The notes beneath the pieces are model-generated. The model saw nothing but the letters and a program-made list of their open reading frames with translations. It was not told the DNA's origin and ran no database searches. DNA of 28,794 nucleotides, from IMG/VR virus record IMGVR_UViG_3300043409_001331, positions 1 to 28,794 of that record, one strand, 5' to 3'. Positions 26,607-28,794 of the stretch are shown in pieces. How positions within the stretch are numbered: the stretch's first letter is position 1; each line of letters begins with the position of its first letter. Made by a program: the position numbers and the translations under genes. The DNA comes from a virus.

Positions 26607-26657
26607 GCGATCTGTTGCCGCATCTTGGCGGGTTTGTTGTTAGGGCGCAAGATCGCT
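26606..26657. repeat. Inverted repeat next to the possible late promoter
   Basis: AGCGATCT (26606-26613) and AGATCGCT (26650-26657) are perfect 8-base inverted repeats separated by 36 bases. The right arm ends at the stop of the tandem winged-helix regulator gene. They could be paired operator half-sites or the base of a loop; no T tract follows. Confidence 0.4.
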
Positions 26658-27373
26658 CATTCTGCGCACCTCCGCTGGCGCTCAATCTTGCCTGCGTCGG
26701 TCAGGCGGTAGGTGTACACCGAACCGATCCGCGCGCCGCGCTCTAGCTGGCCGCTTTTGATCATGTTGGACACCGCGTTATAGCCTGCGGTTTGTGAAAC
26801 GCCTGCGGCCTCGATCAATGTATGGTCGATGGTCGCGAACGTCTCCGACGCGATCGACAGCACCACAGTGCGCGCGTCAACCGGGGCGACGTACATTAGC
26901 GGCGAGGGGCCATCGCCAAGCCTGCGCTGGCGCTCAATGCGGCCCGCTTCAGTCAGCAGATATGTGGGCTTCCCGTTGTCATAGGGTCCGCTGGCGATAT
27001 GGCCCACGGCCTTGAGGTCAGAGATTGCGCGATAGATCGTATCGACCGAAAGCCCCGCCGCGAAGGCCAAGGGCTTGCCGATCTTTTCCGGAGTGTCGCC
27101 AAGCATTCCCAAGATGATCGACCGGGCGCTGGTGGTCTTGATGTTTGGGCGCCGCGGCTTGTCGGGCGCAGGTGGTGCGGCGCGTTGAGCCTCTGGCACT
27201 TTGCCAATGTGGCCGCTCTTTCGTTCAAGAATTTGCATCGCCTTCGCCGCCGTGTGGCCCTGCTGCATTAGATCAAGGATAGCCAAGACACCGGCGGGAA
27301 CCTTTGCTTCCGACTTCGGGGGCAAGATGCGGGGAATGGTCTTGGTGATGATTAGGCTGTGGTTCTGTATCAT
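26657..27373 (-). CDS. DNA-binding regulator with two winged-helix units
   Basis: A 238-residue protein. Residues 1-80 hold a short helical region and a Pro-rich linker. Residues 81-151 and 167-235 are two similar winged-helix units, the second ending YRLTDAGKIERQRR and the first YLLTEAGRIERQRR, which shows internal duplication. The recognition helices would be near SVDTIYRAISDL and SQTAGYNAVSNM. It lies between the replication genes and the start of the structural operon, which suits a late-gene switch or replication regulator. The start overlaps the loader stop (ATGA). Its target and sign of action are unknown. Confidence 0.72.
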   Translation of the reverse strand: MIQNHSLIITKTIPRILPPKSEAKVPAGVLAILDLMQQGHTAAKAMQILERKSGHIGKVPEAQRAAPPAPDKPRRPNIKTTSARSIILGMLGDTPEKIGKPLAFAAGLSVDTIYRAISDLKAVGHIASGPYDNGKPTYLLTEAGRIERQRRLGDGPSPLMYVAPVDARTVVLSIASETFATIDHTLIEAAGVSQTAGYNAVSNMIKSGQLERGARIGSVYTYRLTDAGKIERQRRCAE

Positions 27374-27909
27374 TGCTCGTTCTCTCTGTTGCTGGTGAAA
27401 GTCTTTGGGGCGAAGCCTGCCGCCTCCATGATCTGTTGCGCCCTCTCTTTGGTCACGGGCATTCTTTCCTCCTCTGCTGGCTTTGGCAAGGCGTTAAGCT
27501 TTGCCGCCTCACGTTTTCCCCGCATCGCAGTCAGCAGGCCCAGGATATCGCCGGGGGTTGGCCGGGCCCGTGAATTTTCGCGGTTCCATTGGCGCAAACC
27601 CCAGACAACCTGCTCGCGCGTCCAGTCTTGCAGCTCATCGCACCACCAAGCCAGTTGACCAGCACGAACCTCATCATCTTCAAACGGCCTGAAATATGAG
27701 CTTAGAACAATCTTAACCTCAGAAGCAATCTGGCGACGGTGATCTTGCAGCTCTTGCGGCGAAAGCAATTTCGAGTGCCGAGGAGTTGGGGTTGGATATG
27801 CCGCGCGAAAACTTTCTTGCGTTGCCAATCCATGTTCGCCAGCCTGCGTCCCAGTCTGCGAAAACGGTTGCTTTGGCTGCGTGGTGATCTCTGAACTTGT
27901 CGGCTTCAT
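27370..27909 (-). CDS. Putative replicative helicase loader
   Basis: A 179-residue protein. The ATG at 27909 has GAGGAAA upstream; a longer ORF from 28050 is not favoured. Residues 1-45 are Gln/Thr/Pro-rich. Residues 50-130 hold LSPQELQDHRRQIASEV, SYFRPFEDDE, LAWWCDELQDW, VVWGLRQWNREN and ARPTPGDILGLL, a helical pattern like G39P or DnaT-type phage loader proteins. It follows the O-like initiator, as P follows O in lambda. It would bring the host DnaB helicase to the origin. No ATPase motif is seen, so a DnaC-type ATPase loader is not supported. It overlaps the initiator gene by 191 bases in another frame. Confidence 0.6.
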   Translation of the reverse strand: MKPTSSEITTQPKQPFSQTGTQAGEHGLATQESFRAAYPTPTPRHSKLLSPQELQDHRRQIASEVKIVLSSYFRPFEDDEVRAGQLAWWCDELQDWTREQVVWGLRQWNRENSRARPTPGDILGLLTAMRGKREAAKLNALPKPAEEERMPVTKERAQQIMEAAGFAPKTFTSNRENEQ

Positions 27910-28423
27910 TTCTGATTTCCTCGTCGGTGAATTGCTTCGAATATGCATCCTGAATGTTGCGCTCACTTGGCACCCAGCCCTCAGGCAATCTGCATCGGCG
28001 GGCTGGCTTTTTTTCCTTTGGCTTACTATCGCCAAAGAATGACGGTTCATTGATGGTTATATATGATGGTTCGGGGGCATGTGATGCCGGGGGGGTGGGG
28101 CATGTGATGCCGGGGGGGGCGGCATTTAGTGCCGGGGGGCATGTGATGCCGGGGGCATGTGATGCCGGGGTATGTATGCGATAACGATTTGCGCCCGATC
28201 GAGCTGCGCCTATTTCGGTTTGGAGCCATCCCTCTGCCTCAAGGTGCCTCAAAGCCAGCCTTACGCTGCGCTCGCAAATCCCTGTTTTCCGTGAAATTGT
28301 CGCAATCGAAGGCCAGCATTCGCCGTCATCGTTTGCATTGTCAGCAAGGGCTATAAGGACAAAACGATGCGTCGACCCCGAAGGCCCGCCGTCCCAAATA
28401 GCCGACATTAATTTGATGCTCAA
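27719..28423 (-). CDS. Replication initiator, lambda O-like, with internal origin
   Basis: A 234-residue protein. The TTG at 28423 has AGGA eight bases upstream; the next in-frame ATG is at 28408. Residues 1-82 are a helix-turn-helix/winged-helix domain of the phage initiator type (RFVLIALADNANDDGECWPS, then RKTGICERSVRLALRHLEAE). Residues 86-116 are a Pro/His/Cys linker encoded by the iterons, followed by a charged patch (KPKEKKPARRCR). Residues 146-204 (LPEGWVPSE, FRDHH, FADWDAGWRTWIGNARKF) match the end domain common to phage replication proteins. It probably binds the iterons in its own gene and recruits the loader. Confidence 0.82.
   Translation of the reverse strand: MSIKLMSAIWDGGPSGSTHRFVLIALADNANDDGECWPSIATISRKTGICERSVRLALRHLEAEGWLQTEIGAARSGANRYRIHTPASHAPGITCPPALNAAPPGITCPTPPASHAPEPSYITINEPSFFGDSKPKEKKPARRCRLPEGWVPSERNIQDAYSKQFTDEEIRNEADKFRDHHAAKATVFADWDAGWRTWIGNARKFSRGISNPNSSALEIAFAARAARSPSPDCF
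28076..28166. repeat. Five palindromic iterons, probable replication origin
   Basis: GGCATGTGATGCC (5-bp arms around GTG) occurs at 28076-28088, 28099-28111, 28138-28150 and 28154-28166. A degenerate copy, GGCATTTAGTGCC, is at 28121-28133. Start-to-start distances are 23, 22, 17 and 16 bases, and G tracts of 4 to 8 separate them. On the left is an AT-rich stretch (28045-28070, TTATATATGATGG), a possible unwinding element. Iterons in the middle of an initiator gene with AT-rich DNA beside them is the lambda ori plan. Confidence 0.75.
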
Positions 28424-28530
28424 TTGCCCATTCCTGCTTGGGCAGGGTCTTGATCACGGTAACCAGCCGTGCTATCAATAACCTGCATTGGTATTGCACC
28501 GACCTTGCCGCAACCACGGCTAATAGTCAA
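28420..28530 (-). CDS. Possible 36-residue ORF before the initiator gene
   Basis: A TTG at 28530 with AGGGGCGGG just upstream (within a hairpin) opens a 36-residue frame containing SRGCGKVGAIPMQVIDSTAG and ending GMGN. Its TGA overlaps the TTG start of the initiator as TTGA, like the 4-base junctions elsewhere in the window. The Gly/Cys-containing start reads like real protein, but codon use is not clearly biased. No family recognised. Confidence 0.4.
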   Translation of the reverse strand: MTISRGCGKVGAIPMQVIDSTAGYRDQDPAQAGMGN

Positions 28531-28557
28531 GGCCCGCCCCTAAAAAAGGCGGGCCTT
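28529..28557 (-). terminator. Strong stem-loop after the GapR-like gene
   Basis: AAGGCCCGCC (28529-28538) and GGCGGGCCTT (28548-28557) form a perfect 10-bp stem with a 9-base loop. On the minus strand the loop contains TTTTTT and no T tract follows; on the plus strand a weak CGCTTTATT follows. It lies between the GapR-like stop and the replication genes, so it may partly end leftward transcription or act as a plus-strand terminator. Confidence 0.6.
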
Positions 28558-28569
28558 CGCTTTATTGAT

Positions 28570-28794
28570 TTAGGCCATGCCCAGAGCGGCCATGTATAGG
28601 TCGAGCACAGCCGCTTCCTCTGCGATATCATCAGCAGAGCGCTTGCGAAGGGCGATGATCTTGCGCAGCACGGCGGTATCGTACCCGCGCCCCTTGGCCT
28701 CAGCCATCACCTCTTTTTGCGCCTCGGCAATGGCGGCCTTTTCGCTTTCGAGTTGCTCATAGCGCTCCACGAATTGGCGCAGTACTTCGGCGGT
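28570..28794 (-). CDS. GapR-like (DUF2312) DNA-binding protein, 5' end outside window
   Basis: The frame is open to the right edge; 74 C-terminal residues are seen, from TAEVLRQFVERYEQLESEK to LDLYMAALGMA. An in-frame GTG at 28770 is not the start, since the family pattern LRQFVERIE continues upstream of it. Recognisable parts are the coiled coil (ERYEQLESEKAAIAEAQKEV), EAKGRGYD, LRKIIALRKR and the ILDLYMAALGM-type end, the signature of GapR/DUF2312. Alphaproteobacterial GapR binds over-twisted DNA and helps topoisomerases ahead of replication and transcription. A phage copy next to replication genes may ease phage replication. The 5' end is missing. Confidence 0.85.
   Translation of the reverse strand, partial: TAEVLRQFVERYEQLESEKAAIAEAQKEVMAEAKGRGYDTAVLRKIIALRKRSADDIAEEAAVLDLYMAALGMA

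Follow-up and report, generated by a model that had tools for sequence, protein, structure and literature searches.

Results

Initiator gene and its neighbours

The window, meaning the whole 28,794-nucleotide stretch of viral DNA from an IMG/VR contig analysed here, contains a minus-strand gene that, judged by its sequence matches, encodes a phage replication initiator of the HTH_36 type. The gene, the domains of its product and the ORF that follows it are listed below.

27719-28423, minus strand: replication initiator gene, 234 aa, TTG start
Product domains: winged-helix HTH_36, residues 1-84; disordered linker, residues 85-140; helical C-terminal domain, residues ~145-208
28259-28261, minus strand: codon of Arg55, a residue of the predicted recognition helix that co-varies with the outer iteron-arm base (GGCA vs CGCA)
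27370-28050, minus strand: downstream ORF overlapping the 3' part of the initiator gene, in the position of lambda P (helicase loader)

The product matched HTH_36 (PF13730) at 1.9e-12, with 47.2 bits against a curated cut-off of 25, as well as phrog_1032, "replication initiation protein" (1e-30, over residues 2-210), and phrog_391, "O-like" (7e-22). A preliminary description had called the gene lambda O-like, and the PHROG matches agree with a phage replication initiator; the lambda O family itself was not recovered, as the Pfam Phage_rep_O model gave no match up to E 0.1 and only HTH_36 and weak HTH models were found. No RepA_N match was observed in Pfam up to the same E-value. In a structure model built on 37 relatives, the winged-helix domain (1-84, recognition helix at 51-64) and the C-terminal helical domain (~145-208) were confident and flanked a poorly structured linker (85-140, pLDDT 54-63). 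The palindromes described below map to this linker, where they had been placed before. Fold comparison picked out no single family; the RepA N-terminal domains 4pql and 4pt7 were among the matches over 93-95 residues, but their Z scores of 8.8 and 8.5 were equalled by many unrelated winged-helix proteins, and the closest solved folds were mostly transcription regulators. A search for sequence-related solved structures gave none that was convincing, the best being a regulator at E 0.007. The C-terminal domain had its best match in a plasmid of Paracoccus denitrificans (66% over 73 aa), and an alphaproteobacterial host is plausible for this phage.

The downstream ORF had no family match in Pfam or PHROG and no pairwise match to the P-like loader of MD8 or to Bcep176 gp10. 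In the relative MD8, an annotated P-like loader lies directly downstream of the initiator; since the ORF here has no family match, a helicase-loader role for it can only be guessed from where it lies. The protein encoded at 26657-27373 (minus strand), immediately after the replication genes in the downstream direction, gave weak winged-helix matches (PadR/PaaX/AbiEi-like). A GapR-like DNA-binding gene (PF10073, 2.2e-30), truncated at the window edge, occupies 28570-28794 on the minus strand, directly upstream of the initiator gene. As proteins of the GapR type bind AT-rich DNA that is overtwisted, this gene might conceivably be linked to replication. A strong hairpin (28530-28565) was observed between the two genes, and 12 nt of its upstream arm (28548-28559) are perfectly complementary to early codons of the initiator (28379-28390), a pairing that could be an alternative, attenuator-like one.

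Palindromic iterons in the linker-coding region

Five iterons, numbered in gene order, were observed across 28076-28166.

28154-28166: iteron 1, GGCATGTGATGCC, read as PASHAP
28138-28150: iteron 2, GGCATGTGATGCC, read as PGITCP
28121-28133: iteron 3, GGCATTTAGTGCC, arms intact and centre changed, read as PALNAA
28099-28111: iteron 4, GGCATGTGATGCC, read as PGITCP
28076-28088: iteron 5, GGCATGTGATGCC, read as PASHAP

The four exact copies of the 13-mer reported in the preliminary description were found again, with no further copy in the 28.8 kb record. The 13-mer is strictly an interrupted palindrome, with 5-bp arms around a 3-nt centre. The fifth copy, previously described as degenerate, was also confirmed, but it differs in its centre alone and retains both GGCA/TGCC arms, bringing the total to five copies of GGCA-N5-TGCC. 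Plus-strand G-runs between the palindromes (28089-28098, 28112-28120, 28134-28137) could form G-quadruplexes.

The copies are not all translated alike. One frame (CCC GGC ATC ACA TGC) gives PGITCP and was used twice, while the other (CCG GCA TCA CAT GCC for PASHAP) was used three times, for PASHAP or PALNAA. The linker had been described as a repeated PGITCP dictated by the DNA repeats; the second part of this statement holds and the first is only half right. As the copies are read in two frames, the DNA word is what is conserved. As a control, we shuffled synonymous codons 20,000 times with the protein unchanged. Five arm-pairs never arose (the maximum of four was reached 28 times), nor did four exact 13-mers (the maximum of three was reached once).

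Palindromes in related initiators

We compared 86 non-redundant initiator genes collected from viral contigs and bacterial genomes. Each gene was divided into three equal segments, and the best repeated dyad of each segment was compared with those of 40 synonymous shuffles. The linker segment beat all 40 shuffles in 47 of 86 genes (2.1 expected), whereas the N-terminal segment did so in 2 of 86 and the C-terminal segment in 0 of 81. Palindrome families with at least three copies used two or more frames in 33 of 43 cases, and all three frames in 17 of 43. Arms differed by lineage and included GGCA-N5-TGCC, CGCA-N5-TGC, GAAC-N3-GTTC, GTGCC-N7-GGCAC, TGTCGG-N5-CCGACA and GGTGAA-N6-TTCACC, among others. 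Because of this variation, it is the position in the linker that keeps palindromes, without any single sequence or peptide. The preliminary description had set against its own reading the case of relatives that retain the linker peptide and lose the palindromes; we observed the opposite, with lineage-specific palindromes kept and the peptide not.

A near relative (protein 97-98% identical) is represented by a 36 kb contig with both ends inside the iteron linker, terminating in GGCATTATAT, which has the arm seen in the window and a different centre. Contigs of a second lineage likewise break in the iteron linker. These breaks probably arise because short tandem palindromes defeat assembly, and failed assembly at the repeats seemingly opened the near-complete genomes of two relatives at the origin.

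Recognition helix and iteron half-site

Iteron similarity between genes, corrected for that of the rest of the domain, correlated best with the stretch in which the recognition helix begins (partial correlation 0.36). The value was ~0 immediately before and after this stretch, and a second, weaker peak was observed near the NDDGECW motif. We then compared half-sites in a non-redundant set of initiators whose helix reads ER-x-[VI]-[RQ]. At the position of R55 in the window, initiators with Arg had GGCA in 22 of 22 cases and CGCA in none, while those with Gln had CGCA in 22 of 22 and GGCA in none, with the GGCA set partly retrieved via its DNA pattern. All clustered GGCA-pattern hits with a readable helix carried Arg at this position. 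In a tree computed with the helix masked, the initiator of the window fell among Gln/CGCA lineages, yet it has Arg and GGCA. Arg/Gln and GGCA/CGCA switched together five times on this tree, the window being one of the switches; only two pairs lie on well-supported branches, so that the coincidence is suggestive and not significant alone.

A box array in the AT-rich segment

The AT-rich stretch noted beside the repeats in the preliminary description was confirmed, with 34% G+C at 28035-28072 compared with 57% for the whole record. It directly adjoins the iterons. The segment also holds a specific array that had been missed, namely three phased TGAYGGTT (AACCRTCA) repeats.

28064-28071, minus strand: AACC box 1, AACCATCA, read as EPS, 4 bases past the last iteron
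28051-28058, minus strand: AACC box 2, AACCATCA, read as TI in a different frame
28040-28047, minus strand: AACC box 3, AACCGTCA, read as EPS
28035-28072: AT-rich segment with the box array, a candidate DNA unwinding element

The three boxes are spaced 13 and 11 bp apart, an arrangement with p ~4 in 10,000 under synonymous shuffling. In relatives, GAACCRTCA boxes usually start 3-7 bp after the last palindrome and are spaced 10-13 bp. Within the 86 genes, which were selected without regard to the box motif, AACCRTHA was observed 161 times on the coding strand and 5 times on the reverse, against a synonymous-shuffle expectation of 21. Spacings of 10, 11 or 12 bp accounted for 86 of 94 close box pairs. 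The boxes were always in one orientation and about one helical turn apart, and they occurred in all three frames (EPS; RTV or TI; NHQ or NRK). Their frame order varied freely across 58 loosely defined linker clusters, some of which were found through the box motif and two of which are simple repeats. In 38 GC-rich genes, third-position G+C fell from ~0.7 to 0.24-0.30 at the boxes.

The box was nearly constant across initiators with entirely different palindromes. We observed the array in dozens of initiator lineages, from Proteobacteria to Actinobacteria, in initiators that differ in their C-terminal domain and in phages whose hosts are distant. Phages of Stenotrophomonas, Microcystis and Pseudomonas carry boxes, and those of an Arthrobacter phage read AACCRTCC and fall in three frames. 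When viral contigs were scanned unguided for triple boxes, ~70 of 73 stretches, with simple repeats set aside, lay in winged-helix initiator ORFs or their truncated linkers, as judged by reading the ORFs. Bacterial genomes with box-bearing prophages contained exactly one array in 5 of 6 cases, and the reversed control gave 0. Triple-box surveys of random genomes yielded few hits, and these included simple as well as unrelated repeats; the array is thus rare outside prophages, and the triple pattern alone is no proof.

Zero boxes were counted in 23 of the 86 initiator genes, and the array was not found in lambda (O), P22 (gene 18), Pam5, Bcep176, Sansa and a few others. With this sizeable minority of relatives lacking them, the boxes are not essential to every such origin. 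Bcep176, a Burkholderia phage, has GAACAGTRG repeats past the linker at similar spacing, possibly a variant box.

Discussion

A proposed origin within the initiator gene

A lambda-type replication origin very probably lies inside the gene of its own initiator, in the part that codes for the linker. We infer palindrome binding, DNA opening and origin activity at this locus, and propose that the N-terminal winged-helix domain would bind the five palindromes as dimers, with Arg55 of the recognition helix reading the outer G of each half-site. The initiator-iteron complex would then bend the DNA and open the adjoining AT-rich segment. There, sequence-specific melting and strand capture may fall to the GAACCRTCA array, in analogy to the DUE 13-mers of RK2, and the helicase would be loaded from it. 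This role is suggested by the uniform orientation of the boxes and their spacing of about one helical turn. Labour would thus be divided, the palindromes serving recognition and the boxes opening and capture. The linker would need flexibility only, and DNA-level selection could therefore dictate its peptide. A search for a replication-linked skew had been suggested as a check; the only signal observed was a weak GC-skew sign change at 27.0-28.5 kb, which is too weak to count as support.

The boxes could play another part in the same origin. They may be recognised as duplex by a conserved host or phage partner (a loader, a primosome or a DNA-bending protein) and not be melted or held by the initiator, an arrangement we consider possible while leaning against it. 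A near-constant box beside wholly different palindromes would suit a shared partner, as helical-turn spacing would suit duplex binding. However, the boxes accompany varied C-terminal domains in phages of distant hosts, the box segment is the local AT-rich minimum, and no candidate partner is known.

It is very improbable that the palindromes are instead operators, with the HTH protein acting in transcriptional regulation of its own gene and not at an origin. Winged-helix proteins commonly target palindromic operators, and the regulators among the nearest solved folds would fit such a role. Nevertheless, the palindromes are ~260 bp inside the coding region and not at a promoter, the box array that follows them is coupled to them (mostly 3-7 bp away), and the matching protein families are named for replication initiation. 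We hold it very unlikely that the repeats act in RNA, either as mRNA hairpins or as protein-binding sites. The segment did fold better than shuffled RNA (z -3.3), and the strand specificity of the boxes (161 to 5) is expected of RNA signals, but an Rfam search of the segment gave no match, and the arms in relatives are only 4-6 bp with loops often of 5-7 nt. Moreover, box spacing follows the turn of the DNA helix, and the half-site co-varies with a DNA-recognition helix. Finally, PASHAP, PGITCP and EPS recur in many relatives, as repeats produced by selection for a proline-rich linker and an EPS motif might, but we rejected this reading as extremely improbable because single genes read one DNA word, and likewise the boxes, in two or three frames, and synonymous shuffles destroy palindromes and boxes alike.

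Returning to the initiator-driven origin, an in-gene iteron origin is of a known kind, and what we provisionally regard as new is the array of boxes, the conservation of this array in three frames and the correlation of the half-site with a single residue. We give about even chances to a broader reading, in which the helically phased GAACCRTCA array would be an undescribed second origin element that belongs to winged-helix phage initiators and is deeply conserved among phages infecting Proteobacteria, Actinobacteria and probably Cyanobacteria. The array would form a constant melting and loading module beside freely changing, initiator-specific palindromes whose half-site would be set largely by one helix residue (Arg for GGCA, Gln for CGCA). 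Searches of open-access papers for the box strings returned one irrelevant text hit and no description of the boxes, and searches of the same literature on iterons, in-gene origins and HTH_36 yielded work on lambda, plasmids and Stx phages in which the boxes were likewise not described; as this coverage extends to open-access papers only, "undescribed" is provisional.

If this reading is correct, the origins of a very large group of uncultured phages could be read from sequence to within tens of bases, and the binding half-site could be predicted from the recognition helix. Constant boxes beside changing palindromes would separate the shared from the initiator-specific parts, so that opening and helicase loading at lambda-type origins could be tested with natural variants. 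The locus would also provide a clean example of how selection on DNA can write a protein linker in every one of the three reading frames.

Comparison with known systems

Several plasmid systems share parts of this arrangement. In repABC plasmids, silent mutations of the AT-rich part of repC abolish replication (PMC3155836); as here, the origin is within the coding sequence of the initiator, and RepC is alphaproteobacterial, but no iterons were reported there (PMC3155836) and the plasmid system is of its own kind. The repeats of the RK2 unwinding element are needed as sequence and not for AT content only, and the Rep protein binds one strand (PMC4081077). RK2 resembles the present locus in having iterons beside repeated elements of an AT-rich unwinding region, and differs in that TrfA has two winged-helix domains and the repeats are 13-mers, compared with 8-9-mers every 10-13 bp here. 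In pSK41, Rep boxes are inside the rep gene, and the linker is dispensable and encoded by the origin (PMC5703833). This RepA_N protein likewise combines a winged-helix N-terminal domain with in-gene sites; it belongs to Firmicute plasmids with other boxes, and the initiator here has no RepA_N Pfam match. Plasmid pPR9 has an N-terminal domain of the same HTH_36 family as the initiator described here, and this domain together with the adjacent in-gene region drives an autonomous mini-replicon (PMC5703833). It differs in its direct repeats and its pSK41-type C-terminal domain, and a search of pPR9 for AACC boxes found none.

The plan matches that of lambda and P22. Lambda O binds both iterons and AT-rich single-stranded DNA, with two iterons plus the AT-rich region as the minimal unwinding unit (PMC7466680), and it bends DNA and opens the AT-rich segment (PMC7466680, PMC5043065). 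The present locus differs from lambda and P22 in its iteron sequence, in its HTH_36 N-terminal domain without a Pfam lambda O match, and in its AACC-box array, which both lack. In lambda and P22 a replication-partner gene follows the initiator. As at lambda ori and in P22 gene 18, dyad iterons occupy the middle of the initiator gene, where the linker is encoded, and an AT-rich segment lies immediately 3' of them, an architecture that supports the earlier proposal of a lambda ori plan with a different iteron sequence.
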